Shown: piece after piece, positions 1 to 62,368 of the stretch
Layout of the letters: each line of letters begins with the position of its first letter
How positions within the stretch are numbered: the first letter of the stretch is position 1
From: Heliocidaris erythrogramma
Taxonomy: Eukaryota; Echinodermata; Echinoidea; Camarodonta; Echinometridae
Assembly (NCBI GenBank): GCA_025617745.1
Contig: CM046873.1
Location: 31,465,101-31,529,100, forward strand
Direction: 5' to 3'
Length of the DNA stretch: 64,000 nucleotides
Position numbers and translations under genes: made by a program
Notes under the pieces: generated by a model
The model's input: only the letters and a program-made list of their open reading frames with translations
Database searches by the model: none
Told to the model about the DNA's origin: nothing

Positions 1-1
1 A

Positions 2-1567: not shown

Positions 1568-2859
1568 ACTGATATTACATCTACCACGTCTAACACTTGT
1601 TCACCTTCTACCACTTCAACTTATGATACATCTACGATGTCTACATGTAGTTCACGTTCTACCACTTCAACTGATAGTACTTCGACCACGTCTACCATTA
1701 GTTCACGTTTTACCACTTCGACTGATACTACATCTACCGTATTAACCACTCGTTCACCTTCTACCACTTCAACTGATATTACACCTACAACGGCTAACAC
1801 TAGTTCACGTTCTACCACTTCAACTTGTGATACATCTGTAATTTCTACATCTAGTTCACCTTCTACCACTTCAACTGATAGTACATCTACCATGTCTACC
1901 ATTAGTTCCCTTTCTACCAATTTAACTGATAGTACATCGACCATGTGTACCATTACTTCACTTTCTACCACTTTAACTGATACTACATCTACGGTATTAA
2001 CCACTAGTTCACCTTCTACCACCTTAACCGATATTACATCTACCATGTCTACATCTAGTTCATTTTCTACCACTCCAACTGATAGTACATCTACCATGTC
2101 TACCATTAGTTCACCTTCTACCACTTTAACTGATAGTACATCGACCATGTTTACCATTAGTTCACGCTTTACCAGTTCGACTGATACTACATCTACCGTA
2201 TTAACCACTAGTTCACCTTCTACCAATTCAACTTATGGTACATCTCTAATGTGTACCATTAGTTCACCTTCTACCAATTCAACTTATGGTACATCTCTAA
2301 TGTCTACAATTAGTTCACCTTTTACTATTTCAACTGATAGTACGTCATCCATGTCTAACACTGGTTCACCTTCTACCAGTTCAACTGATATAACACCTAC
2401 CGTATTAACCACTAGATCACCTTCTGTCACCTCATCTGATATTACATCTAACGTATTAACAACTAGTTCACCTTCTACCACTTCAACTTATGATACATCT
2501 CTAATGTCTACCATTAGTTGACCGTTTACCACTTCAACTGATAGTACGTCTACCATGTCTAACACTAGTTCACCTTTTACCACTTCAACTAATAGTTCAT
2601 CTACCATGTTTACAAATAGTTCACCTTCTACCAATTCAACTTATGATACGTCTACCACATCTAACACTAGTTTACCTTCTACCACTTCAACTGATATTAT
2701 ATCTAACGTATTAACCACTAGTTCACCTTCCACCACTTCAACTTATGATACATCTCTAATGTCTACCATTCGTTGACCGTTTACCACTTCAACTGAGAGT
2801 ACGTCTACCATGTCTAACACTAGTTCACCTTCTACCAGTTCAACTGATAGTACACCCAC
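1568..2859 (+). pseudogene. Continuation of mucin repeat with in-frame stops
   Basis: The 17-codon repeat continues in the same frame but is broken by TGA at 2519-2521 and again at 2774-2776, both replacing the usual TCA in the unit CCATTAGTTCACCG. There are no frameshifts here, only single-base nonsense changes. The segment ends exactly at a transposon insertion at 2860. It may be a dead extension of the array, or exonic sequence whose stops are assembly consensus errors. The recurrence of the same nonsense change in several units favours real decay. Confidence 0.5.
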
Positions 2860-3993
2860 CAGTGGCGTATCCAGGGGGGCGCAACAGGCGCCCCCCCCCC
2901 CCTATTGGCCGTCGTAAAAAAAAAAAAAAAAAAAAAAAAAACCCTACCAATTTAAAATATTGTTCATTTCTAAAATAGGCTTCAAAATGGGTCACATATA
3001 GCACTATTTTGCATCTCAGCCCTTCTACAGAAGCAAAAATTTTCCAAAGACCCTTCCCCCATGACGGCCCATGTCAATAAGTTTCGCCTACTTTGTTGCA
3101 TCCGCGTACTTGAAGGCCACCTGAATGACAAGCATCGACGCACTATACGAGCACACGCACAGATCTGATTATTGAGTGATCAGTCTACAAACACAAGAGA
3201 TCTTCTAATTTTCAGGGAATCAGATATCGATAAATAATTTTCTTTCACAATTTTTCAGTTGAATAATAGTTGTTAGTAATTACACATAGGTAATATATGT
3301 AAGGAGACAAACAAATATCTTTTTCAATTAATTATTCATCATTTGGAAACATTTGCGTAAAATTCAAATTGGCAACAAAAAGTAGTTCTGCTTCTGGGCT
3401 TTTCCGCTCATTAGGCAAGGTAATTTATTCATGAAATTGGATGGCCAGAATTCCATGCAGCCAATCGAAAGCCAGAATAGAAAGGTCAAAGCTGGACCTT
3501 GTATTCTTTTAAGAAACCATTTAACTGGTTAATTTCCGCCATCAGAAACACTTCGAACCAATCACCAAAGAAACCCTTGTCAACGTGCATGGACGTACTT
3601 TCCCATAGAAACGTGTGTAAATATGGTGTTTCGGCTTGTGTTTAACATCAATAAACAGGCCGTTTTGAAACAAAATGGGCCAGAATTCTACAAAACAAGC
3701 AGTCATACTCATAGTTTCATGTACAGCAGAACCTTTGGGTTTTCTATATATATTTTCCTTTTTAACTGAATTAAACCAGTGTAAACTAAAAAAGATAAAA
3801 ATTAATGGTTTTAAAAGTTGAGATTTATGGACTTTCATGATTAATGTACATGGTTCTATGGTGGAAATTTGTGGTGGGTGATGCGCGCGCGCGGAAAGTT
3901 AAACTCGCGCAATGCAACCCACTTTTTGGTATGATCAATAATTCCTGGCCCCCCCCCCCCCCGCCCTATTGGGAAATCCTGGATGCGCCCCTG
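2860..3993. mobile_element. hAT-like non-autonomous element in mucin array
   Basis: The left end reads CAGTGGCGTATCCAGG and the reverse complement of the right end reads CAGGGGCGCATCCAGG, two differences in 16. The mucin repeat is cut precisely, and CACCCAC is duplicated at 2853-2859 and 3994-4000. Removing the element plus one duplication (1141 bp) joins the upstream frame to the frame open downstream from 4001. The interior has poly-C and poly-A runs next to the left terminus, poly-C next to the right, and no convincing transposase. CAG...CTG ends fit hAT-type elements, although the visible duplication is 7 bp rather than the usual 8. Confidence 0.8.
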
Positions 3994-4000
3994 CACCCAC

Positions 4001-5457
4001 AATGTCTACCATTAGTTCACCTTCTGCCACTTCAACTGATGGTACATCTACAATGTCTCTCACTACTTCACCTTCTACCACGACAACTGATAGTACATCT
4101 TCCGTGACTACCACTAGTTCACTTTTCACCACTTCAGTTGATGATTCATCCACCATTTCTACTACTATTTCACCTTCTACCACTTCAACTGATAGTACAT
4201 CTACCATGTATACCACTACCTCCCTTCTACCACTTCAACTGATAGTACATCGACCATGTCTACCATGAGTTGACCGATTACCACTTCAACTGATAGTACG
4301 TCTACCATGTCTAACACTAGTTCACCTTTTACCACTTCAACTAATAGTACATCTACCATGTTTACAAATAGTGCACCTTCTACCAATTCAACTTATGATG
4401 CATCTAACGTATTAACCACTAGTTCACAATCTACCAATTCAACTTATGATACATCTACCACATCTAACACTAGTCCACCTTCTACCACTTCAACTGATAT
4501 TATATCTAACGTATTAACCACTAGTTCACCTTCTACCACTTCAACTTATGATACATCTCTAATGTCTACCATTAGTTGACCGTTTACCACTTCAACTGAT
4601 AGTACGTTTACCATGTCTAACACTAGTTCACCTTCTACCAGTTCAACTGATAGTACATCCACAATGTCTACCATTAGTTCACATTCTGCCACTTCAACTG
4701 ATGGTACATCTACCATGTCTCTCACTACTTCACCTTCTACCACGACAACTGATAGTACATCTTCCCTGACCACCACTAGTTCACTTTTACCAGTTCAGTT
4801 GATGATACATTCACAATTTCTACTACTAGTTCACCTTCTACCACTTCAACTGATAGTACATCTACCATGTCTACCATTAGTTCACATTCTACCACTACCT
4901 CCCTTCTACCACTTCAGCTGATACTACATCTACCGTATTAACCACAACTTCACCTTCTACCAACTTAACTTATATTACATCTACCATGTCTTCATGTAGT
5001 TCACATTCTACCACTTCAACTGATAGTACATCTACCATGTCTACCATTAGTTCACTTTCTACCAATTTAACTGATAGTACATCGACCATGTCTACCATTA
5101 ATTCACTTTCTACCACTTTAACTGATACTACATCTACGGTATTAACCACTAGTTCACCTTCTACCGCCTTAACCGATATTACATCTACCATGTCTACATC
5201 TAGTTCATTTTCTACCACTCCAACTGATAGTACATCTACCATGTCTACCATTAGTTCACTTTCTACCAATTTAACTGATAGTACATCGACCATGTCTACC
5301 ATTAATTCACTTTCTACCACTTTAACTGATACTACATCTACGGTATTAACCACTAGTTCACCTTCTACTAATTCAACTTATGATACATCTAATGTCTACC
5401 ATTAGTTCACTTTTTACCATTTCAACTGATAGTACGTCCTCCATGTCTAACACCGGG
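4001..5457 (+). pseudogene. Decayed mucin repeat, downstream half of array
   Basis: Mucin units resume directly after the insertion. The first 230 bp are open, then a 1-bp deletion in the motif CTACCTCCCTTC near 4230 shifts frame. TGA codons follow at 4271-4273 and 4577-4579. The same deletion-bearing motif recurs near 4900, and a 2-bp deletion near 5390 closes the last open stretch. The last unit ends in CACCGG followed by GTTTGT at about 5458, which could be a remnant donor site or simply the array edge. As it stands it cannot encode a continuous protein. Confidence 0.6.
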
Positions 5458-5956
5458 TTTGTGTAGCAATTTATATTTTTCCTTTTGATCATGTAATCAA
5501 AGCTAATAATGTTATAATAATAAATATATTTCAAAATTAGTGTATGAACACATTATATCCCTTTATTTGGTCATCATTTCATACACATGTGATGGTAATG
5601 AAATGAACAGGAAGTGTTTGTGTGTGTGTGTGCGAGAGATTACGAGAGCGAGAGACAGCAAGTGAATGAGAGAGAGAGAGAGAGAGAGAAGGAGAGAGAG
5701 CGAGGTGAGATACATTTTCGGGTCAGTCAAATCAGGTTCAAAATAATGTTAAGAGGATAATGGCCGAGTTTATGGGGCTAGGCGCAGACGTTCCTGTTTG
5801 TTTATAGAATGGATGGATGGTGTAGTCCTTAATCCCATTCCTCGCACCTTAAAGCTTTCGTTCACTTTTTGCTGACAATAGTCAGTTAAATCACCTTTTA
5901 TGGTTATAGCAAGTGAGCTAAGTGAGCAAGAAGTAGTGGCATTCAAATGGGGTCAT
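5458..5956. other. AT-rich spacer with GT and GA microsatellites
   Basis: No coding sequence is seen. A (GT)n tract near 5618-5632 runs into (GA)n-rich sequence at 5634-5705. Confidence 0.6.
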
Positions 5957-6315
5957 CCCTATAGCTAGAAGGTCCGATAGTTAGCGGGTCCGATAGACCG
6001 ACACCCAATAGAAAGAAGGTTCGATAGACCGAATGTGCGAGAGGGTCCAGTAGACAGAAGGTTCTATAGACCGAATCGGCAGGAGGGTCCGATAGTCCGA
6101 AGGTTCTATAGATCGAATGATCAACGGGTCCGATACTCAGAAGGTCCGATAGATAGAAGGTTCGGTAGACCGAATGTACGAGAGGGTCCAATAGACAGAA
6201 GGTTCTATAGACCGAATCGGCAAAAGGGTCCGATAGTCCGAAGGTTTAGTAGGGGTCCGATAGTTAGAAGGTCCGATAGACCGACAATAAATACGTAAAA
6301 ATGGTAAAATAGTGG
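5957..6315. repeat. Left foldback arm, 16/42-bp units
   Basis: Units of the form GGTYCKATAGWCCGAA are repeated about a dozen times with variants. The arm is the reverse complement of 7771-8081. Confidence 0.75.
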
Positions 6316-7770
6316 ATAAAATGATAAGTGGTTAAAAAATAAGTTGTTAAAATAGGTTGGGGCGTTCCAACCAAAGAAAAAGCAAAAAAGGAAGAGGTTG
6401 AAAAGGAAAGAAGAAAAGAAAAGAAATGAAAAGAAGAGAAAAAGAAAAGAAAGCGGAAAGGAAAGAGAAGAAAGCAAAACTTCAAAAACTTCGCTCACTA
6501 GCATTATTAGGGTTATTTTCCAATGCCCATTATAGGCCTATTTTCACTATTGATATTAATTAGTTATTAATATAATCGCCATATTTATGTATATAAACCA
6601 ATGCCAATTATATTAATAAGTCATATTCTTATGGTTATTTGGTTTGCATCTTGAATCTCTAGCTAATGTTATGCTATTTTCAAAGAATGTTAGCAACATA
6701 ACTGAAAAGAATCGAGCGGCAAATTGACCTAAAGGGGCTAAAGAGATGAATTTTCAGAAATAATGGCCTGTGACCAATAGTCTCTTCCCAATATGAGAAC
6801 GGAAGATGCCGATAACATGTTACACAGATTGTGAGAACGGAATAACAATACGATAGAACCTATTCGCAGGATACAAAATTCTTTTTTTTCTCTCTCTCTC
6901 TCGTTCGCTCGCTTTGCTCGCTCATACAATCAAGAAACTAGGCCTAGATTGTTTATTGCAGCAAGCACCTCTTACGTCCTGCAGCAACAAGAAGCCCGAA
7001 TATCATAATATACCCCCACCCCCCCCCCCCCCAAAAAAAATGGTATAATTTACCCGACAGAGTCCACAGACTAAAATTTGCCAAAAGGTAGTAGTATGGA
7101 TGTAGTCGGTGAACATTCAAAAAAGTATAAAAGTTGACATCATAGCTGGTAGGAAAATATCATCTGACAACCCTAAAAAAAAAAAAATGGAAACGCCCCC
7201 CTCCCAAGAAGGTGGTAGGGCCTAATTGAAACAATTTCATTTTTATCAGACAGGATCTTTTGTTGTCAGAAGCTTATCTTTTGTTACATTTAATGAAAAT
7301 TCAACTATAAAGTGTGCCCCCATAAGATTTCTTTGTTTAAAAAATAACACTTGTGTTTGAAGGGGACGCCCTTTCTTCAGCTTGCTCCAATAGAAAAAAT
7401 GCTTCGGGGCTTTAGTGTGCACCATATAATTAGATTTCCATGTTTCAAACAATGGTCAGCGTTCCCCAATGCCAATACATCGGTTTAGTGGCAAACTTAA
7501 CACGGGGGGGGGGGGGGGGGGGCTGAGCTGCATGGGTGGACCACCCCCGCCCCACGGTGATGATAATGATGATGCTCTGATAAAAATACTTTTAACATGT
7601 TGAAAATGTATAAAACAAAACTTTAAAGTAAGTTCCCCATTTTTTTTGGGGGGGGGGAGGGTGGGCTTACAGACATAGTGCATCGGTTTATTACAATACG
7701 CATAGAAAAAGATAAGGCATTACCCTTTTCCTTTTATGAGATAAAACTATTAAAAACATATTGTATTCAC

Positions 7771-8081
7771 TTATTTTACCGTTTTTACGTTATTGTCGGT
7801 CTATCGGACCTTCTAACTATCGGACCCCGACTGAACCTTCGGACTATCGGACCCTTTTGCCGATTCGGTCTATAGAACCTTCTGTCTATCGGACCTTCTG
7901 ACTATCGGACCCCGTTGGACATTCGATCTATAGAACCTTCGGACTATCGGACCCTCCGCCGATTCGGTCTATAGAACCGTCTGTCTATTGGACCCTCTCG
8001 TACATTCGGTCTATTGAACCTTCTATCTATTGGGTGTCGGTCTATCGGACCCGCTAACTATCGGACCTTCTAGCTATAGGG
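7771..8081. repeat. Right foldback arm, 16/42-bp units
   Basis: This is the inverted partner of 5957-6315. The inner boundary also matches, through TACCGTTTTTACG-like sequence on both sides of the loop. It is about 50 bp shorter than the left arm, so some units differ in number. Confidence 0.75.
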
Positions 8082-8100
8082 CTGTAACCGTTCAAACAAC

Positions 8101-8298
8101 CTGTTGCAGTAGTACCAGATGCGATTGTGGAATCATTCGTTATACTGATACTAGTTTCCGACATAGAGGATGTACCATCAGTTGAAGTGATAGAAGGTAA
8201 AGTAGATGTAGACATGTCACATGTACTATCAGTCGAAATGGTTGAAGATGAACTACTGGTTGACACGGTAGATGTATCAACAGTTGAAGTGGTAGTGG
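8101..8298 (-). pseudogene. Inverted fragment of the mucin C-terminal exon
   Basis: Read on the minus strand this encodes mucin units ending in GTSSMSETSISITNDSTIA, almost the same as the 3' part of the mucin exon ending at 48942. The homology continues past the equivalent exon end: GCAACAG is followed by GTTGTT in the donor position, so exon plus some intron was copied. The fragment begins 20 bp from the end of the foldback element and is opposite in orientation to every other mucin segment. It is too short to be a gene and is best read as a rearranged copy. Confidence 0.7.
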
Positions 8299-8304
8299 AC
8301 CCGA

Positions 8305-8510
8305 CCTAGCTCACGGCAAATTGTAAGAGTGGAGGAAAATGAATAATGTTAGACCTTCAATTAACCCTAGCCCCACCCACCTCTCAATCGTGTTTATTTT
8401 CTGTACAAAACTAGACTAGATCAGGGCTAGGTCTAAGACGGAATAAACTCCAGGTCTACATCTAACTTAGATAATCGTTTTCTTCAACACCAAACTGCTA
8501 AACCTAGACC
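8305..8510. repeat. Dispersed repeat, copy 1
   Basis: The sequence from AGCTCACGGCAAATTG through a TCTACATCTAACTTAGATAA block matches 9471-9680 in the same orientation with indels. The second copy leads into the Penelope-like remnant, so this may be part of that element's 5' region. Confidence 0.55.
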
Positions 8511-8944
8511 CTAGATCTGTCTTTTCTTAGCTCACCTAATGTATATCTATATCTAAGTATATCTAGTTCTAAATCTATACCCCAAGAGTCTGCTTACATG
8601 ACAAGTATACATATACATGTAGTTGGTGACTGATGGTAGATCTCCGACTTCTTCACTGCAGTTAGAATATTTCATCCCATGACCAAACTTTCCAAATTCC
8701 AAATTATTTAGTATTCTGTGGATCTGGAAATAACAAAGTTAGAAATAATAAATGTTCCATTCAGGAATTTGTTGTTTGAATAGATTCTTGCGCCACTCCC
8801 CCCCCCCCCCCCCCCATGGGGCTATCCATGTTTTTTACCGTACCGCTAATGCATCAAATTCAGTCAGGACTTGTCGGCATGAATATTCAAGAAAACGAAC
8901 TGTAGGGATATGATAAAACGAGCAAGGACATTGAGCAGCTGATT

Positions 8945-9020
8945 TGTTTTGCGCAATCGGATAATCTGGTGCTCTATCGATGAAAGTACCGCGAGTTCGA
9001 ATCTCGGCAGAAGAATATAT
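8945..9020 (+). repeat. tRNA-like SINE fragment
   Basis: A 3' half with GAGTTCGAATCTCGG resembles a Pol III B box and T arm. The upstream A-box region is poor and no cloverleaf closes, so it is read as a SINE remnant and not a tRNA gene. Confidence 0.4.
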
Positions 9021-9470
9021 TAAGAAACTTTCTTTTGCTGATTTAAAAATAAGGTGATACTGAGTAAGAAAATACGATACTTGTAGTCTCTTTCAAAGTC
9101 TTCATATTGGATAGCCCCAAAGGTAAGGAAAAAAAGATTCGCCACCGGCCCTGCCTTAAACGTATTTTCATCGTGCTTCCCTTGGCTTTTTCCCACTCAA
9201 TGTTTGTTTCATTGGCCCCAATCATTTGTTTTTAGGCCAAAACAAATCGATTCCGAACAGATCCCGATAATAAATAAGTATAGGACTGGATTGAAAAAGA
9301 TGTAGATTATGATTATTATACAACCCCCCCCCCCCCCCCAACAGTTAATCAGTCTAATAAACTTTAGTGACGCTTTAAATAGTTTGGAAGCTCTGTAATA
9401 AATAGACAAATCAATTCTTTTATAGAGAAGCACTGTTAAAATCTGGTCGGGCAGTGTACATATACATAAG

Positions 9471-9680
9471 CTCATGGCAAATTGTAATTGTGGGGGAAAA
9501 AACGCGGGTTTTAATTGACCTTCAGTTAACATATTAGTTTTTGTGAAAAACTAGACTAGACTAGATCTAGAAGTAGAAGTAGGGTCTAGATCGGGGGCTA
9601 ACAGTAACAGGTCTAAGAAGAGGTAAACTCCAAGTCTACATCTAACTTAGATAACAGTCTTCCTCAACACCAAGCTTATA
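9471..9680. repeat. Dispersed repeat, copy 2
   Basis: This is the direct-orientation partner of 8305-8510, ending just before the Penelope-like coding remnant. Confidence 0.55.
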
Positions 9681-9701
9681 ACCTATACGGACCAGTACCT
9701 A

Positions 9702-10313
9702 CTGTTTGCCTCCCATCACCCCCTTATCCACAAACTGAGAGTGGTAAGAACATTGTTTCACAGGGCCTCATACATTCCTTCTTCTGAGGAAACAAAGAAG
9801 AAGGAACATAGACATCTTCGGAAAGCACTTTGCGTGTGTAGATACCACGATTGAGTATAGAGAAGACCATCCACCCACGTAAAAATCAACGCCAGGACAA
9901 TAAGCCACGTCCATCTGTACAACGCCGGGGCATAGTGTATCGGTGCCTTATATTATTGGACTTTCTGAGAAAATCCAACGGATCCTTTCAGGCTACCGCA
10001 TTCCCGTCTACTTCAAACCGGCAAGTACGGCAAAAACAGAAATTTGTCCACCCGAAGAAAAGGGTTGTCAAGAAAACTATATTGGTGAAACTAAGCAGCC
10101 TCTGCACAAGCGTTTGTATCAACATCGCAGACCGGGGACATTAGGAAACGATTCTGATGTCTACTCCCACCTGAACACATCCAAACATAATTTCGAAGAC
10201 GAGGATGTACTCATTCTAGACAAAGAATTTCGGTGGTTTGAGAGGAGGGGGGGGGGGGGGGGGGGGTTCCGTGAAGCTGACTACGTCAACGCTGAGAACC
10301 CCTACTCTCAATA
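9702..10313 (+). pseudogene. Penelope-like retroelement, C-terminal fragment
   Basis: Three frames together give the end of a Penelope-like element protein. First comes the linker HPLIHKLRVVRTLFHRA with a following KKKEHRHLRKAL block, then YIIGLSEKIQRIL, then the GIY-YIG endonuclease part with YIGETKQPLHKRLYQH, SHLNTSKH and a closing FREADYVNAENP. Frames change near 9852 and near 9943. The reverse transcriptase core is missing, so the copy is 5'-truncated. A run of about 20 G at 10247-10266 has expanded inside the codons before FREADYV. In intact elements the nuclease helps integration; this copy cannot function. Confidence 0.85.
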
Positions 10314-11501: not shown

Positions 11502-11745
11502 AATCGAACCACAAACCACAATTAGCCCATACAATGTTAATACGCTACAACATAGCGTAGTATATAACAGGAATAAAGTTGCATAAGGTAGAAGAAACTT
11601 TAGCTTGGAAGTTATACCAATTCTTTTAGAAATGCACATTATTACGTGGTGTAAATGGTCATTCCAAGTCAAAGTTTCATCTATAATTACTCCCAAAAAT
11701 TTGGACTTAGTTATCTTTTCTACTGGCATATCATCGATTCTAATA
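11502..11745 (-). pseudogene. Non-LTR reverse transcriptase fragment (3' piece)
   Basis: The minus strand encodes KFLGVIIDETLTWNDHL followed by a KRIGITSKLKFLLPYATL segment, the thumb-adjacent part of a CR1/Jockey-type reverse transcriptase. It aligns with the fuller copy at about 15455-15712 and is cut at 11747 by the Tc1 element. The two halves of the fragment are 11502-11745 and 13247-13574. Confidence 0.75.
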
Positions 11746-11747
11746 TA

Positions 11748-13246
11748 AACCCCTCAAAAAAAGTTCTGCAATTAAAGTTTAAGCATTTATATCTCTCTAG
11801 TAACTGTATGATCATCATCAAGTTTGATATCATTGTAAAGCTTGTTTATTCACCTTCACAATGATACCACATTTGTATTGATTATGTAATCACGGAATTT
11901 GTAGTGCACCTAAATATAGGGCAAAGTCAAAAGTGAAAAGTTGCAGAATGCATTGTTATTGTTCACACTGAGTTCTTAACTGGAATGAAAGGTTTTGTTT
12001 CTTTGTTTTTGTTCCTTTTGGTTTGTTTAATTTTGTATTAGGTGTGCATGTTTCTGCTGTAATCCCTTGTTTGGTGGACAAATATTGTTTTCAGTAATTT
12101 TGAAGTGGAATTATTCTTTTGTTTTAAGATGGAATGTGTTTTAATCAGCAACTGATTGTGATAACATTAATATTGTGTTTTGGTTTCATGCAGAATATTG
12201 CAAGTTTCCACCTTAGCAGTACACAACTGCGGTGGGGAAAAAAATCTCACCTCAGCAGATTAATTCATTTTCAGCCATGTAACCCTATCACAGAAACATA
12301 AGCAACACAAACTCTCCTCTTCTCTTGGATTGCTTTTCACTTCAACAAACACATTCCCCTTTCTTGATGTGAACTCATGTTCTTTAACTCTCTCTCCCCC
12401 TCTCTAACGAAACAAAAACAAACACAAATACACACATTTGCAAATGACAAAATGTTTGGCACTTTTTATTGAGTGGAATTGAGTGGAATAGAAGGATCAG
12501 AAGTTCAGTAGCGAGTAGAAGATCCGAATACAGCTACGACAGACTGGCATCTCCTCCTCATGCTTGTCACCAGCCTGGTGATGCGTTGCTGTGGGATGAG
12601 GTTCCACTCTTCGATAAGGATCTGTCGCAACTCAGCCAGTGTAGTGTGATCTGTCACTCTGGCGCGTACAGCACGGCCAAGCTGGTCCCACAGGTGCTCG
12701 ATTGGGTTCAAGTCAGGGCTGTTCGCAGGCCAATCCATCCTCGTCACTGCCTCCTCCTGCAGGTATTCGGTGATGATCCTTGCTCTGTGTGGGCGGGCGT
12801 TGTCATCTTGGAAGATGGCGTTTGGTCCAAGATTGCGCATGTATGGGATGACCTCTGGCCGAAGAATGTTGTCTCGGTATCTCTCTGCTGTCAGGTTTCC
12901 ATCAACGATGATAAGCTGTGTCAACAGATATGCCACCCCACACCATAACACTGCCTCCTCCAAACACTATTACCCGTTCAACATCATTCACACACACACC
13001 CGACATTGCAACAAAAGCAATAGACAATAGCCAAGATAGCCATTCAATTTGCAACTTTTCACTTTTGACTTTGCCCTCTATTCAGGGGTGCTGTGCATTC
13101 AAGGATGACATAACCATTACAAATGGGGCATGGATGTGAAGGGGGATAAATGAACTTTCCAATGATCCAAAAATCAAGAATGATTAAAAAGCCGCCAAAA
13201 AGATATCAAGGCTCAAAGTTGAATTGCAGAACTTTTTTGAGGGGTT
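11748..13246. mobile_element. Tc1-like DNA transposon (1499 bp)
   Basis: Inverted ends start AACCCCTCAAAAAAAGTTC and extend at least 40 bp to a GATATC motif. TA flanks both ends (11746-11747 and 13247-13248). The related non-LTR copy at 15700 preserves the uninterrupted target (AATATATATTGG), so removing the element and one TA restores it. A broken transposase gene runs inward on the minus strand. Confidence 0.9.
12505..12966 (-). pseudogene. Tc1-like transposase, C-terminal catalytic half
   Basis: The frame contains FQDDNARPH, WPANSPDLNPIEHLWD and a closing SMRRRCQ motif. Exactly 34 residues separate the D of QDD-N from the E of PIEH, giving the DD34E signature of Tc1-type transposases. Just upstream, GGGSVMVWGGIS is found in another frame, so a frameshift lies near 12905. 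The N-terminal DNA-binding helices and the first catalytic Asp are not recognisable. The intact enzyme would cut and paste its element at TA sites; this copy cannot. Confidence 0.9.
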
Positions 13247-13574
13247 TATATTGGTGTGTCTGTATTATGAGAATGATGTTTAAAATACATGAAGTGAGTC
13301 TTTTTTTTATATTAAGAGAAAGTTTATTGCACCAGTTTGATACTTTGTTAATTTCATAATTCAAAGTATTGGTTAAAGAATTAAGGTCTTTGTGAGAACA
13401 AAAGATATTTGTGTCGTCGGCAAATAAGACAAAAGTAATAACAGAGGATGTATTAATAATATCTTTGACATAAAGAAAAAATAGTAGTGGGCCTAAGATG
13501 GAGCCTTGGGGGACACTGCATTGAACTAAAAGGGGATCAGAATCATATCCATTGAATGTAACATATTGTTATTG
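13247..13574 (-). pseudogene. Non-LTR reverse transcriptase fragment (5' piece)
   Basis: This is the other half of the fragment split by the Tc1 element. The minus strand gives the GVPQGSILGPLLF motif and an FADDTNIF-type catalytic box as in 15820-16036, with small indels. It ends near 13574 at the same point as the internal deletion junction of the 15-17 kb copy, ATGTAACATATTG. Confidence 0.75.
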
Positions 13575-19715: not shown

Positions 19716-19734
19716 GAGCGGGCTCGGTGTAAAA

Positions 19735-19935
19735 ATGCCAGTGGTAAAAATGCCAGAAGAATAAATGCCAGAGGTAAAAATGCCAGAGGTAAAAATGCCA
19801 GAGGTAAAAATGCCAGAGGAAAAATGCCAGAAAAAAATGCCAGAGGTAAAAATGCCAGAGGAAAAAATGCCAGAGGTAAATATGCCAGAGGTAAAAATGC
19901 TAGAGGTAAAAATGCCAGAGGTAAAAAATGCTAGT
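19735..19935. repeat. 15-bp tandem array GCCAGAGGTAAAAAT
   Basis: About 13 copies of GCCAGAGGTAAAAAT with 14- and 16-bp variants. The apparent MPEVK-repeat proteins are a by-product of the period being five codons. The inverted partner is at 34505-34855. Confidence 0.85.
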
Positions 19936-21030: not shown

Positions 21031-21037
21031 TGATACG

Positions 21038-21171
21038 GGGGCATCTCGTTTTTCCGAAGGTTCGTATTTCCGAAACACTAATTTCCTATGCCTAGGGGTT
21101 CAAAATTCCGAACATTTGTTCCATTATTCCGAAGGTTCGTTATTCCGAAGGTTCGTTTATCCAAAGGTTCA
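21038..21171. repeat. 16-bp array GGTTCATAATTCCGAA, interrupted
   Basis: Six or more variants of GAAGGTTCGTTATTCC are visible. The array resumes for one unit after the next element, at 21955-21985. The same array family is at 51.4-52.6 kb and 63.8 kb. Confidence 0.75.
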
Positions 21172-21173
21172 TA

Positions 21174-21952
21174 CCCTGATAGCAGAAAGAGGAAAAAATG
21201 ACGTGATATTTACGTCGTCGTTTACGTCTTTTTTACGTCCTGTAATTACGTCAATAAGACGACAACTTGCACCAACGCAAGACGTCATGAGGACGTCTTA
21301 TTTTGACGTCATCTCTACGTCTTGTACACTGTAAAAACTAAAGTGCTACTTTTAGGGGCATGTATAGTGACTGCACCTGAAATGCTGTTTATAGCACTTG
21401 TAGTGTGCTAATTTACCAGCAAAAAAAATGTGACCGTGGCAAGCCTCGAACCAGGTTCCGCTGATTGAGAGGCGCTGACGTTACCGATGGACTAACGAAT
21501 GCTTCTTGCAATCCAGTTTAGTCATGGGAGTCAAGTAGATAACATGAACTATGTGGTGTCGTAAATTCACTATGTAACAATATGATCTGCTCTAAATCGT
21601 ACGATGTGAGTTAGTCTAGCGGTAATGCCAGCAATTATCGATCAGCGGACTCTGGTTCGAGGCTCTACAAAATCATTTTTTTATGAATGTTTAGCAGTTT
21701 AAGGAGCCGGTCCAGCTCCCGTGAAAGTGCTGAAATAGCACGCTGAGTGCATTCAATAGCACTCTGAGTGCAGTCCTTATGCAAAAAGCACTTCAGTTTT
21801 TACAGTGTACAGATGACGTCAAAATAAGACGTCCTCTTGACGTCTTGCGTTAGTGCAAGTTGTCGTCTTATTGACGTAATTACAGGACGTAAAAAAGACG
21901 AAAACCACGACGTTAATATCACGTCATTTTTAACACTTTCTGCTATCAGGGT
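21174..21952. mobile_element. MITE with TA duplication and CCCTGATAGCAG ends
   Basis: Inverted ends CCCTGATAGCAGAAAG extend about 150 bp through GACGTC-rich arms. TA is duplicated at 21172-21173 and 21953-21954. Removing the element restores GGTTCATAATTTCGAA, matching the surrounding 16-bp array, so the boundaries are firm. Its centre is filled by a second element. Confidence 0.85.
21327..21807. mobile_element. Nested MITE, CACTGTAAAAAC ends, tRNA-like arms
   Basis: Ends are CACTGTAAAAACTAAAGTGC and its imperfect complement, with TA at 21325-21326 and 21808-21809. Each long arm carries a tRNA-like module: on the minus strand near 21430-21505 and on the plus strand near 21609-21672, each with an A-box-like TAGTCTAGCGG or TAGTCCATCGG and a B-box GGTTCGAGGCT. 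This looks like one SINE-derived sequence captured in both arms. Confidence 0.75.
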
Positions 21953-21984
21953 AATTTCGAAAAGGCTCATATTTACCCACAAAA

Positions 21985-22755
21985 GGACTGTCACACATTA
22001 GGGTGATGTCATTTTTGCATACCTCCTTTCCCTTTTCTAAATCTAAAAATCAGTTGCAGACTTCCTTCTCGTTCCAAATTCCATTCGGGATAATGAAATC
22101 GTACGTCGATTTAAAAAAAGCCAGGTCTACGATCTGGAGTCCAGAGTCTAACCCCGGGGGAAACGAGTAAAAAAAGTTGTTTTTCAAAATCAGACGGGTA
22201 ACCCGGGTATCTCGTTTAGGGTATCAAAAAAAAAAGGAAAATCCTGAAAAAAAGGTTATCAAATTCACGAGTGATGAGAAAAGATCCTCGAAAAGGGTAG
22301 AAAATTTAAATTTGACAGTATTCGGGAGCCGGTCAGGAGCCCAACGAACAGCTGCATGATTTATGCTTAACCGGCTGTCGGCCGTCAATAATCTCAGGAA
22401 TCTTCATTATTAGTTGTCTGTTTGGTGTATTTTCCGCGGGATTGGGCTCACTCGAATTCGAATTTTTACGCGGGTTTTCGCCGGGGTTTTGGCAAGATTA
22501 ACATACGTTACCCTATCGATTTCATATTGCCCTTCTGCCGTCCGCAAACTGGTTAAGTTTTTTGACTTTGTAAGAATCCATTTATTGAGGCAAAATCAAG
22601 GCAGACTGGAAAAGAAAATAATGAAAAAGGGGAAAAAATATGTGACCCTCCCCCACAAAACAACCAATAAGTCGGAAATTTGGGTTTTTTAATTCCAGCA
22701 CATTTTGAAAGCTTAGATTCGTAGCTTTAAAATGATATATAACTTAGTAAATAAA
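21985..22755. other. Region without recognisable gene
   Basis: Only short frames in mixed-composition DNA; nothing recognised. Confidence 0.45.
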
Positions 22756-34504: not shown

Positions 34505-34855
34505 TCACCCATCGCGTGTTTATCTCTGTCATTTTACCTCTCGCATTTTTATCTCTGGCAATTTTTGCTCTGACATTTTTCCTCTGGCATCTTTACCTCT
34601 GGCATTTTTTCCTCTGGCATTTTTACCTGTGGCATTTTTGCCTCTGGCAGTTTTACCACTGGTATTTTTACCTCTGGCATTTTTACCTGTGGCATTTTTA
34701 CCTCTGGCAATTTTACCTCTGGCATTTTTACCTCTGGCATTTTTTCCTCTGGCATTTTTACCTCTGGCATTTTTACCTCTGGCATTTTTACCTCTGGCAT
34801 TTTTTCCTCTGGCACTTTAACCTCTGGCATTTATTCCTCTGGCATTTGTACCTGG
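34505..34855. repeat. 15-bp tandem array, inverted partner
   Basis: About 20 copies of ATTTTTACCTCTGGC, the reverse complement of the array at 19735-19935. Confidence 0.85.
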
Positions 34856-34953
34856 CACCAGTAAGCTAAGGAGAAACAGTGCATGGTATGTAGCTTTGCC
34901 AGAGATGGCCATCTGTTCTAATAGACTATACAGTGCCTACAAAGGAGTTGCTA

Positions 34954-35264: not shown

Positions 35265-35399
35265 TATGTAAGACATAATGTAGCATCACCAGAAAACTGG
35301 TGGTAACGAGGTTTGGTTTGAAAGCATGCAATTCGATTATGAGCATGTGCTGAGCTGGGGGAAGTTACATTACACTGGATATTGTATAATGTTAGAGTA

Positions 35400-43700: not shown

Positions 43701-46226
43701 AGTAATTAAGATATCCCCGAAGCTTGCTCGCTACGCTCGCTCGCACTCACTTATTGTTACCGTCATGGCAGTAACATAAAGTCCTATCTATCTCTTTTAT
43801 TGAGAGATTATGCTTGAAATTAAACGCTTTTGCGGCATCTTCGTCATGAAATCAAAATAATGCAAGCACCATGCATGACCTTCAACAAGAACGTGTTATT
43901 TTTGGTCGCTCGCTTGCAAGTTAGGAGTACAGCAGAAAATATATTCTTAACATTTAATGTGTGTTAAGTACAATGTAGGGGTACAGCAACGTATCAAAAC
44001 GCCTTTTTCCATTCTTGTCTTCACCCTTTATAATTAAGTTCCGCCTTTTCCAAAAACGGTAGGCCTACCCAATTCGTCGAAACCCTCATTGTGTGGGTCG
44101 TCTTGCCCCTCCTATGAAAATACCCTGGCACCGCCCCTAGCTTTTATTGACTACTTGCGCAAACATTTTGTACATGGGATATCAAATAAGAACCATGAAT
44201 AACAGATTATCAACCCAACAAACACAATTTGAAGTGCAATACAAAATCAGGTTCTTCTACTTAAGTCATGAAAGGAAGAGAAGACCTATGAATGTTTTTC
44301 ATTACTAAAAAATAATACTAAATAATTGATTTTAATAAATTAGATAATTAATAGTAAACGAAGAAGCTTGACTGGGGAGGAATTTTTAATTTGTAAACAA
44401 ATCTTTCGGCATATATAATAGCAAGAATATTAATAAAAATAATGAAAAATAATAATATTAATAATGATAGTAATGATGGTACTAATAAAAATAATGTTAA
44501 TAATAATGATAATCATAATCATGATAATAATAATACTTAATCATAATCATAATTATAGTCCTGATAATAATAATAATAATAATAATAATCATAATAATAA
44601 TAATAATAATGATCATTGTGATAATGATGATGCAGAATGCCTGTACGAGGCTAGAATTTAAATCATTGCCCAAACACTAACCAATGCGTCTGTAAGATAC
44701 TTCCCGGGAAATGTACTTCTAATAGCATATTCCCTTCTTAGTATGAAAATTTGTCTTGCCAGTAATTGCATAGGTTTATGCACGCTTGGGCTAAAACCAC
44801 TTGGTCTAATTTCCAGATGGGCTACCTGCATTCGGGCTAAACCCTTTTGGTCCACTCTTCATTTGGTCTAATTTGCACTTGGTCTAATAACCAGAAGGTC
44901 TAATGACCACTTGGGCTAATTATCACTTGGTCTAATTACCATTTGGTCTAATTGCCATTTCACTGTTTGCCCAGGGCGTCATAATACCTATATACACCAC
45001 TGCCTTTAAAAAGAAAAAAAGGCAGTGAACAAGTATAAAAAGCGGCATTTTTGTGGGTAGCAGGAGACACTTTTTGGGTGATTGGAAGGGGGGGGGGCAT
45101 TGTGCCCCCTGCCAACGAGCGAGTTAATTTACGTTTTAGATGAACAAATAATAATAATAATAATAATAATGATGATAATAATAATAATAATAATAATAAT
45201 GATGATAATAATAATATTAATAGTTGCATACTCTTCTTTCTTCTTCTTTCTTCTTCTCCTTCTTTGTTTCGTTTTTCTTCTCTCTCTGTCTCTCTCTCTC
45301 TCTTTTAGGTCACTTGAAAACTCATAGGGGGCAACCGTCCCTGCCCCCTCCCCCCTGCCCCCGCCCCTGCAAATAGCAGTTTGCATAGCTCAAAAGAATC
45401 AGAGAAGCTTAATGGCAGAATATTTAGTTCTTGATATGACAACAGTGTGACTTTGAGCAGGAACTTAGCGAGAGCTGGGGACACAGTGCCCATAAAACTT
45501 TAATAATATTGCAGTAATTAAGATATCCCCGAAGCTTGCTCGCTACGCTCGCTCGCACTCACTTATTGTTACCGTCATGGCAGTAACATAAAGTCCTATC
45601 TATCTCTTTTATTGAGAGATTATGCTTGAAATTAAACGCTTTTGCGGCATCTTCGTCATGAAATCAAAATAATGCAAGCACCATGCATGACCTTCAACAA
45701 GAACGTGTTATTTTTGGTCGCTCGCTTGCAAGTTAGGAGTACAGCAGAAAATATATTCTTAACATTTAATGTGTGTTAAGTACAATGTAGGGGTACAGCA
45801 ACGTATCAAAACGCCTTTTTCCATTCTTGTCTTCACCCTTTATAATTAAGTTCCGCCTTTTCCAAAAACGGTAGGCCTACCCAATTCGTCGAAACCCTCA
45901 TTGTGTGGGTCGTCTTGCCCCTCCTATGAAAATACCCTGGCACCGCCCCTAGCTTTTATTGACTACTTGCGCAAACATTTGTACATGGGATATCAAATAG
46001 GAACCATGAATAACAGATTATCAACCCAACAAACACAATTTGAGGTGCAATACAAAATCAGGTTCTTCTACTTAAGTCATGAAAGGAAGAGAAGACCTAT
46101 GAATGTTTTTCATTACTAAAAAATAATACTAAATAATTGATTTTAATAAATTAGATAATTAATAGTAAACGAAGAAGCTTGACTGGGGAGGAATTTTTAA
46201 TTTGTAAACAAATCTTTCGGCATATA
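40791..46226. repeat. Three tandem 1.81-kb units in an intron
   Basis: Units start at ATAATAGCAAGAATATT: 40791, 42601 and 44415, ending about 46226 (periods 1810, 1814 and 1811 bp). They differ by only a few substitutions and short indels. Each has ATT-rich microsatellites at both ends of its first 850 bp, a 16-bp GGTCTAAT array, a TC-rich tract, and a right part ending TTTGTAAACAAATCTTTCGG. The whole block lies inside the intron between the SEA-like and EGF exons. All frames within it are by-products. Confidence 0.9.
41110..41345. repeat. 16-bp array ACTTGGTCTAATTACC (in each unit)
   Basis: About 12 variants of CACTTGGTCTAATTAC in a 16-bp register. It recurs at about 42920-43154 and 44734-44968 in the other two units. 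The inverted partner is at 47016-47512. Confidence 0.85.
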
Positions 46227-46290
46227 TAATATGCCGAAAGATTTGTTTACAAATTAAAAATTCCTCCCCAGTCAAGCTTCTTCGTTTACT
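46170..46290. repeat. Perfect-looking palindrome at unit/SINE junction
   Basis: The end of the third 1.81-kb unit and the start of the SINE dimer are complementary through GAATTTTTAATTTGTAAAC and the AAGCTTGACTGGGGAGG block, around a TATATAATAT centre. Confidence 0.8.
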
Positions 46291-46841
46291 AACCATTGTT
46301 CCACGGCGGACCGTTTGAATATTAATGAGTCAGAAAGAAGAGGATCTTGGGTATTTGATTCTAGTTCGTCGTGACTTGGCCGTGAACCAGAATAGCCTGG
46401 TGGTTAAGTCGCTGCCCGGCAAGCAGTAGATGACAGGTTCGAATCCCGCTGGTTCCAATTTTTTCTGACTTGTGTTTTTCATTATAGATCGAGCATACGA
46501 TCTTTAACACTGGGAGTAATATGCCGAAAGATTTGTTTACAAATTAAAAATTCCTCCCCAGTCAAGCTTCTTCGTTTACTAACCATTGTTCCACGGCGGA
46601 CCGTTTGAATATTAATGAGTCAGAAAGAAGAGGATCTTGGGTATTTGATTCTAGTTCGTCGTGACTTGGCCGTGAACCAGAATAGCCTGGTGGTTAAGTC
46701 GCTGCCCGGCAAGCAGTAGATGACAGGTTCGAATCCCGCTGGTTCCAATTTTTTCTGACTTGTGTTTTTCATTATAGATCGAGCATACGATCTTTAACAC
46801 TGGGAGTAATATGCCGAAAGATTTGTTTACAAATTAAAAAT
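46231..46841 (+). repeat. tandem dimer of a 290-bp tRNA-derived SINE
   Basis: Units start at ATGCCGAAAGATTTG: 46231 and 46521, with a third cut short at 46811-46841. The two full copies look identical. Each contains a tRNA-like block with intact A box TAGCCTGGTGG and B box GGTTCGAATCC. A minus-strand relative is at 22756-22960. Confidence 0.85.
46384..46455 (+). other. tRNA-like block in SINE (also 46674-46745)
   Basis: 72 nt with a perfect 7-bp acceptor stem GAACCAG/CTGGTTC and a 5-bp anticodon stem enclosing loop CCGGCAA. The T stem has two mismatches and position 33 is C instead of U, so it is a degenerate tRNA-like promoter block rather than a working tRNA. Confidence 0.65.
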
Positions 46842-47015
46842 AGATAATTAATATATAAAATGTAGGAATATTGATTGACTTGATATAAGCAGCAGCAAGG
46901 GGAATAACTCTTTTAATGCACATTTACGTATAGATGACTTCTTTGAACTTTCATTTTTTAAAGTTTAATTTCCCTTTCCTTTTTCAACTTGCTACTTGCC
47001 AGAAGAATAATTAGT
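46842..47015. other. Short spacer
   Basis: AT-rich and without features. Confidence 0.5.
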
Positions 47016-47512
47016 AATTAGGCCAAATGGTCATTAGACTATATGAAAATTAGACCAAATGATAAGTAGCCTAACTGGTTATTAGACGAATTGGATATTA
47101 GACCAAATGGTCATTAGACCATATGACAGTTAGACTAAATGATAAGTAGCCCAACTGGTTATTAGACTAAATGGAATTGGACCAAATGATAGGTAGACCA
47201 TATGGTATTAGCCAAAGTAGGTGTAGTCCGAATGGATATGAGACTATGTGGCTTGTAGACAAATGACTGTTAGACTATTTGGAAATAGACGAAGTGAAAA
47301 TTAGCCGAAGTGAAAATTAGCCCAAATGGGTTTTAGACTAAATGGGGTTAGCCAAACTGTGTATTAGACGAATTGGTTATTAGGCCAAATGGAAATTAGA
47401 CGAAATGGTAAGTAGACAAACTGGTTGTAGACAGAATGAAGTTAGACCACGTGGAGTTCGACGAACTGATGATTAGACTAAGTGGTGGTAGACCAAGCGA
47501 CAGTGTACCATT
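47016..47512. repeat. 16-bp array, inverse of the GGTCTAAT array
   Basis: About 30 variants of ATTAGACCAAATGGTC. It is longer and more diverged than the arrays in the 1.81-kb units, which it faces in opposite orientation. Confidence 0.85.
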
Positions 47513-47623
47513 GCATACAGCCGTTATCTGTTTTGATATTCGCTGCAAAGAAAGTACAGATATAATTTTCACTGCCCAGTTCTCATGAAATACAACTCAT
47601 TGACTAACACTTTTTATTTGCAG

Positions 47624-48124: not shown

Positions 48125-48942
48125 TTATTCAAACTACCACTTCAACTGATAGTACATCTACCATGTCTACCATTAGTTCACCTTCTACCACTTCCACTGA
48201 TGATATATCTACCCAGGCCCGTAGCCAGAGGTGGGTCGGAGGGGTCGGACGACCCCCCTCCCCCCTTCTTGGGCTGAGGTCCGCTTTTCCATGAAAAAAA
48301 AACACACACACACACCTTTAAAAATTGTGTGTTCAAAATCATCATTCACAAGCCCTAAATTTCCCCTCGGGAGTCCTTAAATTGCAGCAGAAAGCATCTA
48401 GATTTTAAAATTTTCCGGGGGAGCATGCCAATGGACCCCCCTAGCAAGGACCTGATTATGACAAAAAGGTCCACTTTTGCCAAAAACGACCCACCCCTTT
48501 AGAAACCCTGGCTACGGGCCTGCTACCGTATCAACCACTAGTTCATATTCTACCACTTTAACTGATAGTACATCTACCATGTCTACATCTTCTCCACCTT
48601 CCATCATTTCAACTGATGGAACATCTACCATATCTACCACTAGTTCACCTTCTACCATTTCAACTGATGGAACATCTACCATATCTACCACTAGTTCACC
48701 TTCTACCACTTCAACTGATGATACATCTACCATATCTACCACTACTTCACCTTCTACCACTTCGACTGATAGTACATCTACCATGTCTACATCTACTTCA
48801 CCTTCTGCCACTTCTACTGATGATACATCTACCGTATCAACCACTACTTTGCCTTCTATCCCTTCAACTGATGGTACATCCTCTATGTCGGAAACTAGTA
48901 TCAGTATAACGAATGATTCAACAATCGCTACAACTGCAACAG
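48125..48942 (+). CDS. Mucin exon, split by a transposon
   Basis: About nine mucin units (STDSTSTMSTISSPSTT, STISTTSSPSTTSTDDT and others) end with SETSISITNDSTIATTAT and the donor GTAATT in phase 1. A 309-bp element at 48214-48522 interrupts it; removing the element and its 5-bp duplication restores one frame. The acceptor is unclear: AAAAG at 48120-48124 would give phase 1, while the preceding EGF exon ends in phase 2, so an exon between them is missing or this start is wrong. Product: O-glycosylated extracellular stalk. As assembled, the insertion would introduce unrelated residues and stops unless spliced out. Confidence 0.65.
48214..48522. mobile_element. 309-bp hAT-like MITE in mucin exon
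   Basis: Ends are CAGGCCCGTAGCCAG and exact complement. CTACC is duplicated at 48209-48213 and 48523-48527. The related cassette near 40000 has the empty site GATATATCTACCGTATCAAC. A 5-bp duplication with CAG...CTG ends is compatible with some hAT lineages, but the superfamily is not certain. Confidence 0.85.
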
Positions 48943-49329
48943 GTAATTTGAATACCACTACTTCTTCTTGCTCAACTAGCTCACTTGCTATAACTGTAAA
49001 GGGTGATTTAACTGACTATTGTCACTACTGCAAATACCCTTACGGCGCTTGGTCGTTTCGCCTCTGTATATATATGAAATCCTCGCCCATGGTATTAAGA
49101 AAAGGGTTGTTTATGCCCCTCCTCGTCAAACATGTGTCTGCCCATTCAACCACTTCACAACCATGTTAGAATATTATACGTCCAGTGTCATCGCCACATG
49201 AATCAATTCCATTACAAATTCCCAACTAAAGTTGCTTTGTATAATTTTATTACATAAAAAGGATACCCGCCGTGTTCGTTTCGTTAGGTATTTTCCCAGT
49301 CATCGTATAAATTGCTCTTTCTCTTGCAG

Positions 49330-51110: not shown

Positions 51111-51347
51111 CCTTCTGGTTACTTTTGCCCCCCCCCTTCCCTTTGTCACTTTTCTTTCCTTTTTCTTTCTTCCATCTTTTCTTTTTCACGTTGGAGGGGT
51201 CGAGGCGGTGGTGGTGCTGATATAATATGATAAAAGATTGAAGAATGATCGTTTGAATGGTGGGTAACGAGGATTTGATATACGCATTTCTTGTTGAAAT
51301 GTGCCTTGATTGTAGTAAAGGTGGTTTTCGTGTGTGTGTGTGTGTCG

Positions 51348-52560
51348 GGGGGGGGGGGTACTCGTTTTCAGAAGGTTCGTTTTTCCGAATGTTCATAATT
51401 CCGAAGGTTCATAATTCCGAAGGTTCGTAATTCCGAAACACAAATTTCCCATAGAGCAGGGGGTTCATAATTCCGAAAATGAAATAGGGTTCATAATTCC
51501 GAACATTTGATGCATTACTCTGAAAGTAAATGACATATATCTTTTCCAACTCGGCCAATCCATGTACAAATTAAGTAAAGACAATCTCACCGCAATTTTT
51601 TCTAATATGTTCCGCAAGAATACTTCTATATACATTACTACCCAACTAGACAACCAAACTACTATCATCTACCATTAACAAGAACTTTATTTGCAAAGAA
51701 CTCATTTGTTTACTCTGGATCTGCACACTGGAATTCTGTGCCTCATGATTTTAAAGAATCCCCTAGTATTAATGCTTTTAAACGTATGCTTTAAAAAGGT
51801 TAATCCGTCAATACTCACAGGAACAGGTCAAGTCAATACACAATTAACTTTAACATATCCATACCTATATTATACCTTCGTATAACATATTTTTTTTAAA
51901 CTGAAATCATATAAGCATGCCTAACGACCTGACGTTCCATACACGTACCCCTGCAGTCTGTCTTTTCATAATTACCTGCACCTTCTCTTTCTGCCCCCTG
52001 TTATATTTGTTATCAGTTATACTTTTATAACTTCTTGTATAATATCTTGTATATATTTTGTGTTCATTATACATTTTTTTTCATTTTCTCCCCTGGATTA
52101 AAACGTATTGAAACTAAGTTCAGGGGCTTGCCTCTTGTACAAGCTTTGCTTCTTTCTGGCAAGTCCCTCCGTTTTACACTTATTATAAGCTAAAGTGTGG
52201 TTATGTTGCTGATCCTTTTTCAAGAATTATGATATTTTCATGTATTCTATATGACACATATTCGAACAACTTTGATGTATTATATTTATTATGTCATGTT
52301 TCTTTATATTTTGTTTATGTGAAACGGAAAAAGAATAAATAAATAACAATAAAAAATAAGGTTCCGAAAATGCAATAGGGTTCATAATTCCGAAGATATG
52401 ATGCATTACTCCGAAGGTTCGTAATTCCGAAAATGCAATAGAGCCCTACATAACTTTTCGGAATTATGAACCCTATCATTCATATTCGGTATTGCGAACC
52501 GTCAGAGTGACGAACCTTCAGAAATAAGAACCTTCGGAATTATGAACCTTTGGAAAAATG
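51348..52560. mobile_element. Foldback element with GGTTCATAATTCCGAA arms
   Basis: 16-bp units GAAGGTTCATAATTCC run forward at 51358-51520 and 52356-52440 and in reverse at 52455-52560, with the hairpin centre near 52447. A non-LTR fragment (51520-52355) sits in the left arm, bracketed by near-duplicate array segments of about 55 bp. Same architecture as the element at 5957-8081. Confidence 0.7.
51520..51798 (+). pseudogene. Non-LTR reverse transcriptase C-terminus
   Basis: The plus strand encodes LKVNDIYLFQLGQSMYKL and SNMFRKNTSIY, then after a frameshift near 51672 LTRTLFAKNSFVYSG, HWNSVPHDFKESPSINAFKR and a stop. This is the closing domain of a CR1/L2-type element. The region to 52355 is its 3' untranslated part, ending in AAGAATAAATAAATAAC, a typical 3' tail. 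Confidence 0.8.
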
Positions 52561-52724
52561 TCATGTTACCATTTTCGTGACCCCATTAACAACAATGTAG
52601 TAATGGAGACCACTTTAATTTCCAATGTATAATTGTGAGGAATGAAAATGAGAGAATAATGGTTGCGTAGCTTAAATCAAAGTTCCCAAGAGCTGTCCTT
52701 TATTGTTGTATATGTTATTTCCTT

Positions 52725-54450: not shown

Positions 54451-54528
54451 AAATTGATACCCCACCTGAAATACATAAGTTCCTGTGTGATAGTGTGGGG
54501 TCGATTTTTAACGGGAGATTCTCGTAAT

Positions 54529-62313: not shown

Positions 62314-62368
62314 CTTTTTTATGTACCGGGGTATGAATCTAGTATTCATGTTTTCGTTTTTCATATAG

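Follow-up and report, generated by a model that had tools for sequence, protein, structure and literature searches.

Foldback elements with a common end layout among the short inverted tandem arrays of the sea urchin Heliocidaris erythrogramma

How can tandem arrays of one short period, lying in inverted pairs within a single locus, differ in sequence from pair to pair? The question is raised by a stretch of 64,000 nucleotides of the Heliocidaris erythrogramma genome (assembly GCA_025617745.1, contig CM046873.1, positions 31,465,101 to 31,529,100; hereafter the window), in which a preliminary description had pointed out four sets of arrays with units of 15-16 bp. All of these arrays were found again at their positions, both by Tandem Repeats Finder and by a lag scan, and their units are strongly enriched over a Markov shuffle (matches with at most 3 mismatches on both strands: 23 vs 0.2 expected for U1a, 33 vs 2.6 for U2, 30 vs 1.0 for U3 and 17 vs 0.4 for U4). 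When the window was scanned at lags 10-19, with microsatellites masked beforehand, lags 15-16 gave 13 loci, ten of them being the arrays already described; no loci appeared at lags 11, 13, 14 and 17, and the 13 loci found together at lags 10, 12, 18 and 19 are, by eye, mostly GA-, TCT- or AAT-rich. Our analysis revealed that the short arrays are mostly arms of mobile DNA elements, present in the genome in thousands of copies.

Ends and insertion sites of E1, E3 and E4

The first pair of arrays belongs to a complete foldback element of 2141 bp (E1, 5949..8089), which begins with GGGGTCAT on the left and, read as the reverse complement, with GGTTACAG on the right. It is flanked by a target duplication, whose left copy ATTCAAAT (5941..5948, forward strand) and right copy GTTCAAAC (8090..8097, forward strand) agree in 6/8 positions, two bases being different. 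The left arm (5957..6322, forward) consists of 16-bp units, mostly at 16- and 26-bp spacing, and of a short inner domain; the right arm (7760..8081, reverse) has one 42-bp block fewer, and the loop occupies positions 6323..7759. Aligned in register, the arms agree in 95.9% of 320 bases; gaps take up 46 and 2 bases, mostly because of that one block. Their units also have a common order, as the observed alignment score was reached by none of 300 permutations of the units. The high likeness of the arms (about 96%) suggests copying between them, and the 42-bp difference fits ordinary unequal exchange or slippage. In the loop, six of the longer open frames (59-87 aa), not counting a low-complexity one of 71 aa, gave no Pfam match.

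The ends of E1 are fixed by an empty site. When joined, its flanks match a paralogous mucin exon at 48754..49024 (forward strand) with 84% identity over 277 bp and a second one at 49819-50073 with 77% over 273 bp, in both cases ungapped at the join; in the former, which is the empty site of E1, the reverse complement of ATTCAAAT is present once at the matching place. Together with the duplication, this places the ends at 5949 and 8089, 8 bases beyond the inverted repeat on each side. The limits 5957 and 8081, given in the preliminary description, are only those of the inverted repeat, and the element is longer by 8 bp per side. A second copy of E1 on another contig (L042) carries the identical octamers GGGGTCAT and GGTTACAG within a target duplication, GCTTATTC, that is exact in 8/8 positions; since L042 has the same pair, the octamers belong to the element and differ between its two ends. 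That L042, which is longer, might be an autonomous element was rejected: it is an E1 copy with another element, of the L014 type described below, inserted into it with a duplication CCACGGTG (8/8), and, by eye, the same site is whole in the E1 of the window.

The mucin-like sequences of the window are 51-bp (17 aa) repeats at 1-5460, 8121-8295, 39939-40219 and 48523-49917, and the block adjoining E1 is oriented opposite to the others.

E3 is a foldback element of 2737 bp (44773..47509), whose left part is tandemly triplicated. Its target duplication ATTGCATA (44765..44772 and 47510..47517, forward strand) is exact (8/8). The left arm (44773..44962, forward) consists of 16-bp units, the right arm occupies 47009..47509 (reverse), and further copies of the left arm start at 41152 and 42962 within the tandem repeat. 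When the outer 44 bp are aligned end to end, 31/44 positions match, more than at any other offset (29 at the next best); the inner units have no register, 148 of 300 permutations reaching the observed score. Despite this, we count E3 as one element because of its ends and the exact target duplication. In the surroundings of E3, at 40.8-46.2 kb and 46165-46841, a 1.81-kb segment, including the left part of E3, is present in three tandem copies, after which come a near-perfect palindrome and a 290-bp tandem SINE-like repeat (100% matches). This structure may be either a real rearrangement or an assembly error.

E4 (about 51333..52571) is likewise flanked by an exact duplication, TTTTCGTG (8/8; 51325..51332 and 52572..52579, forward strand), and has runs of GT and G at its left end; a shift by one base leaves a duplication of 7/8 and a right end in GG. 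Its units are in register, the observed score being reached by 2 of 300 permutations. The loop contains, by eye, an apparent 3' end of a LINE, and a search with a LINE protein gave 16 relatives. E4 is surrounded by a larger inverted pair (50240-50973 and 53338-54455, 79.5% identity over 679 bp in the best match), whose units, judged by eye, measure about 370 bp; this is perhaps another foldback with long units.

As to the weight of such duplications, two random 66-bp windows had an 8-bp repeat in common in 1224 of 20000 cases after masking and in 1827 of 20000 without it. With ACC right before the right copy these numbers decreased to 19/20000 and 412/20000, respectively, and 8-bp repeats at an equal offset of 0-20 occurred by chance in 163 of 200000 cases. 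The ACC control was chosen after E3 had been seen, and therefore E4 is the fairer test.

Unpaired arrays and a genome sample

The arrays of the window had been described as being all in inverted pairs. For E1, E3 and E4 this is correct, the pairs being foldbacks with 8-bp target duplications; E2 fails the tests for one element. Its left array (19727..19930, forward) has the 15-bp unit GGTAAAAATGCCAGA, which recurs inverted in the right array (34519..34859, reverse) 14.6 kb away. The two have no common unit order (123 of 300 permutations reach the score), a target duplication is missing, and a search within 20 kb revealed no matching end (at least 7/8, with GG/CC). Neither of the two arrays makes a complete element alone, as judged from the boundary search. 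That the two arrays of E2 belong to a single large foldback, about 15 kb in size, which has absorbed other insertions, is in our opinion unlikely: an outer block at 19516-19719 does match 35400-35596 in inverted order with 78.5% identity, but the duplication and the register between the arrays are missing, and the block is separated from the array by about 540 bp on the right (some 313 of them, by eye, a MITE) as opposed to 7 bp on the left. A palindromic MITE with the TIR ACACTGTAAAAAATAACTG is located at 34954-35266, near the right array of E2.

For a second arm of the U4 family (21037..21985, forward), the only inverted partner found when 3 mismatches are allowed is the right arm of E4, about 30 kb off. 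At about 21174-21951 a MITE flanked by TA splits this second arm, and the two halves of one U4-like unit can be read by eye on either side of the MITE. This MITE, with the TIR CCCTGATAGCAGAAAG and ACGTC-rich arms, was inserted at TA into the U4 array. The window also harbors a Tc1/mariner-like element (11742-13252), whose inverted repeats (11742-11959 and 13036-13252) surround a DDE_3 frame on the reverse strand (12505-12966), as well as a Sushi (SCR) exon with a Pfam match (54704-55000) and a putative second one (62299-62631) with a translation like that of the first.

In order to see how general the pairing is, 20 random 10-kb stretches (200 kb) were taken from the same assembly (1.064 Gb, 26 contigs). 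Arrays of period 10-40 with a score of at least 50 numbered 43, of which 11 were simple and 32 complex. All four loci of this sample with complex arrays of 14-17 bp (L002, L006, L014 and L020) have inverted partners, in agreement with the pairing expected, and all 7 of their rows have at least 2 inverted unit matches. For complex periods of 10-13, inverted unit matches were found in 4 of 8 rows. For periods of 20-40 this was the case in 7 of 17 rows, or in 2 of 11 if the rows inside L006, L014 and L020 are excluded, and the remaining two look like one inverted pair of 22-23 bp in L013. Chance matches come more easily with short units, and the three simple rows of period 14-16 also had inverted matches (2, 12 and 3). 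Not counted among the 14-17 bp loci were L012, which is marginal and really a 31-bp repeat lying in a TIR of 350 bp, and arrays rich in purines or AT in L001, L002, L004, L009 and L018, some of them with inverted unit matches. One more stretch of the sample, L019, consists entirely (1-10000) of a 38-bp satellite in about 266 copies.

The foldback build proposed for the window, i.e., long inverted repeats of tandem subrepeats around a variable loop, was found in E1, E3 and E4 and in the sampled loci L006, L014 and L020, the last three having duplications of 8/8, 8/8 and 7/8. At base level, L006, L014 and L020 belong to one structural class; L002 looks like another class and has, by eye, the TIR GGCCCGTATTC.

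The copy numbers of the ends are high. The 29-bp end of the L014 family has 2601 + 2570 = 5,171 matches in the genome (at most 3 mismatches), a 40-bp stretch of the E1-type end has 937 + 912 = 1,849, and a doublet of the U3 unit has 325 + 310, the reversed patterns giving 0 in each of these three counts; doubled GGTCCGATAGTCCGAA has no exact match anywhere in the genome. Among 100 listed exact matches to the E1 end, located on C1 and part of C2, neighbours no more than 10 kb apart formed 17 facing-out pairs, one facing-in pair and no same-strand pair, and the facing-out pairs among the matches listed span 1.8 to 6.5 kb. Out of ten L014-type ends (L032-L041), three (L033, L035 and L038) have a partner end within 3.5 kb, with duplications of 7/8, 7/8 and 6/8, respectively, and with a terminal segment of 7 bases in L033; for the other seven no other end was found within that distance. 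Pattern scans of viral contigs, prokaryote contigs and phage records gave nothing, which has little weight for an animal element.

These data bear on the possibility that the arrays are independent minisatellites, generated by slippage, whose pairing and periods are due to chance or to later inversion. It would agree with the lack of a common unit order in the arms of E2 and E3 and with the fact that no element boundaries were found for E2 or for the 21-kb array. However, it has to face exact target duplications, the empty site, thousands of near-identical ends and the inverted partners of all sampled loci. For E1, E3 and E4 it is refuted, to E2 it may still apply, and on the whole we consider it highly improbable.

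Terminal octamers, unit ladder and probable kinship of the units

Ten of the twelve ends of E1, E3, E4, L006, L014 and L020 start with GG, often with GGGGT; the exceptions are one end of L006, which starts with GA, and the left end of E4, obscured by its GT and G runs. The octamers are GGGGTCTG and GGGGTAAC in L014 (where a G run permits a shift by one base), GGGGTAAC and GGGGTCCG in L020, GAATGTAT and GGGGAACC in L006, and GGTTTATG and GGTACACT in E3, and the right octamer of E4 is GGTAACAT; CGGGT can be read in the right octamer of L035 and in the left octamer of the copy nested in L042. In E1, L006 and L014/L020 the terminal octamer is unlike at the two ends: in E1 and L006 the octamers match in 4/8 and 1/8 positions between the ends, and the next 16 bases in 16/16.

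The units following the octamer form a ladder. Counted from the end, they start at 22, 38, 53 and 69 in E1, at 22, 38, 54 and 70 in E4 (right), at 22, 38 and 54 in L014 (left), and at 22, 39 and 55 in both L020 (left) and L014 (right), the positions for E4 right and L014 left shifting by one base with the choice of the boundary. Some units of the ladder are weak (0.56-0.62 identity, e.g., 0.62 for L014 left at +38 and for E1 at +53). The units of E3 are in another phase, those of L006 are spaced mostly by 14-15 bp with some distances of 20-21 and 33-35, L020 right proceeds in 20-bp steps, and L014 right departs from the pattern after the fourth unit. Of 227 pooled spacings, 116 are 15 or 16, 43 are 26, 14 are 14 and 11 are 20-21. 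A fixed length of replication slip, suggested earlier as one possible cause of the common period, is not supported by these spacings (14-16, 20-21 and 26 among others) or by the 42-bp block by which the arms of E1 differ.

The units had also been regarded as unrelated, which is partly wrong: those of E1 and E4 are identical in 11/16 positions in the register set by the ends (P 0.0001 with full shuffles, 0.003 with shuffles keeping GG), and no likeness of this kind was seen for U2 and U3. In the same register and with shuffles keeping GG, the units of E1 and L014 agree in 11/16 positions (P 0.002) and those of E4 and L014 in 9/16 (P 0.09); a second variant of the E1 unit matches L014 in 8/16 (P 0.17). 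From these identities (11/16, 11/16 and 9/16) we suppose that the units of E1, E4 and L014 are probably diverged kin. The motif GGT...CC, said to be common to all arrays, is unremarkable if the freedom in choosing such a motif is taken into account: some motif of this kind is common to 12% of shuffled sets, and, by eye, GGT...CC is missing from the unit of L006. Palindromic units were also rejected as a common factor (P 0.18 to 0.95).

The idea of a common mechanism is supported by the GG ends and 8-bp target duplications, which recur across unit families, and by the unit positions, which are nearly the same in E1, E4, L014 and L020. A tentative and rather doubtful extension of this idea is that the arms represent a positional code, in which a multimeric transposase of Merlin type, or a partner of it, would read the spacing, while diverged families keep +22, +38 and +54. 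The steps of such a code, equally speculative, would be 16 and 26, the latter exceeding the former by about one helical turn.

Source of the transposase and relation to known families

We consider it likely, with a probability of roughly 0.8, that E1, E3 and E4 are non-autonomous foldback DNA transposons of a common layout, which depend on an outside DDE transposase, most likely of the Merlin type, and whose unit ladder is a set of putative binding sites. The layout consists of the 8-bp target duplication, a terminal octamer mostly with GG, arms of 14-16 bp units near the end, and the loop. Such elements were inserted as units with 8-bp duplication, presumably by cut-and-paste; a DDE transposase supplied by other elements would cut at the GG ends, and the ladder would serve as an array of binding sites for this transposase or for a helper protein, its spacing being kept while the sequence of the units drifts with the binding specificity. 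The evidence in hand comprises insertion as units, the 8-bp duplication, the empty site of E1, the same layout across families and the high copy number. As for the Merlin type, it is favored by the ends, by the duplications and by the presence of intact Merlins in the genome. According to one paper (PMC8101967), Merlin ends start with GG and their duplications are of 8-9 bp, and both features are found in the foldbacks (GG at 10/12 ends).

The genome contains 52 matches to PF12762 (DDE_Tnp_IS1595); in 20 of these the open frame is 350 aa or longer and free of internal stops. Eight of the 52 loci (L021-L028) were fetched. Among the eight, duplications of 8 bp and ends in GG were found in L024, L027 and L021 (GG was required in the search for L021), and L026 has a 9-bp duplication CTTTGTTTT (by eye) and TIRs of about 1.18 kb with tandem repeats of 80 bp inside. 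L026 (759-6424), taken with L029, is a Merlin whose open frame spans 465 aa, and its family has a second copy, L028, the flanks of which do not match; in L022, L023 and L025 no clear ends were found. In L023 a U3 foldback adjoins the Merlin domain and does not enclose it.

Intact Merlins resemble the foldbacks in that their TIRs can be long and internally repetitive (L026, L028), but these repeats are 80 or 147 bp long in this genome. The ends also differ beyond GG: the four Merlin ends GGCTAGAC, GGGAAGAG, GGCATAAT and GGCATACT have only GG in common with GGGGTCAT and GGGGTAAC of the foldbacks. Inverted pairs of 15-16 bp arrays are missing from the four Merlins with defined ends; 15-bp rows were detected by Tandem Repeats Finder in L024 (2479-2545, ATACATG-like) and in L026 (4852-4901, CCCCCAGGACAACTA, 3.3 copies), neither of them in an inverted pair. 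As none of these four shares more than GG with the foldback ends and the 15-bp rows are unpaired, we do not classify the foldbacks as Merlins. In the loops of E1, E3, E4, L006 and L014, 16 of the longer frames were scanned, those of low complexity set aside, and none of the 16 has a transposase domain; one frame of the L006 loop gave a weak match under its cut-off (PRD1_P5_C, E 0.085). The lack of a DDE_Tnp_IS1595 domain of their own is expected for non-autonomous copies, and among the foldback copies read no autonomous partner was found.

For the same foldbacks, the transposase could instead come from another of the superfamilies that make 8-bp duplications (P/Galileo-like, hAT or Mutator-like), which we regard as a serious alternative, if somewhat short of an even chance. 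Ends of hAT and P elements usually start with CA, unlike the GG of the foldbacks, and Mutator duplications are usually of 9 bp or more. The GG of the foldbacks agrees with the published ends of Merlin (PMC8101967). On the other hand, Galileo of Drosophila, a member of the P superfamily, has long, internally repetitive TIRs, and their repeats hold binding sites for the transposase (THAP) domain (PMC3688188). These repeats are long, in contrast to the short units here, and the binding site nearest to the end is about 70 bp away from it. Tetris of Drosophila virilis has the foldback build and an outer domain of tandem repeats in each arm as well, but its units are of about 220 bp and its duplications of 8-10 bp; the Tetris paper says that most foldbacks seem to belong to Mutator and lists sea urchin among foldback hosts.

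The TU elements of sea urchins, described by Liebermann, Hoffman-Liebermann et al. in 1983-1986, reportedly carry in their long inverted repeats an outer domain built of tandem units of about 15 bp, and have an 8-bp target duplication and modular heterogeneous loops. Outer units of about this length and 8-bp duplications are found in the foldbacks analysed here, which may accordingly be called TU-like in build. In the literature searched we found nothing that links TU elements to Merlin, nor the unit words in print.

Foldback elements have been known for more than forty years, and, to our knowledge, many of them still lack an assigned transposase and an explanation for the repeats in their arms. 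The end layout common to several families may come as a surprise to specialists. With thousands of copies and several unit families of the same end layout, H. erythrogramma makes the questions of the transposase and of the arm repeats testable. Elements this abundant, whose inverted arms measure from a few hundred bases to about 1 kb, are also likely to give rise to inversions and assembly errors. If the spacing of the units is indeed read as a positional code, concerted replacement of all units would let sequence and specificity co-evolve, and one superfamily could spawn many non-cross-reacting families per genome.
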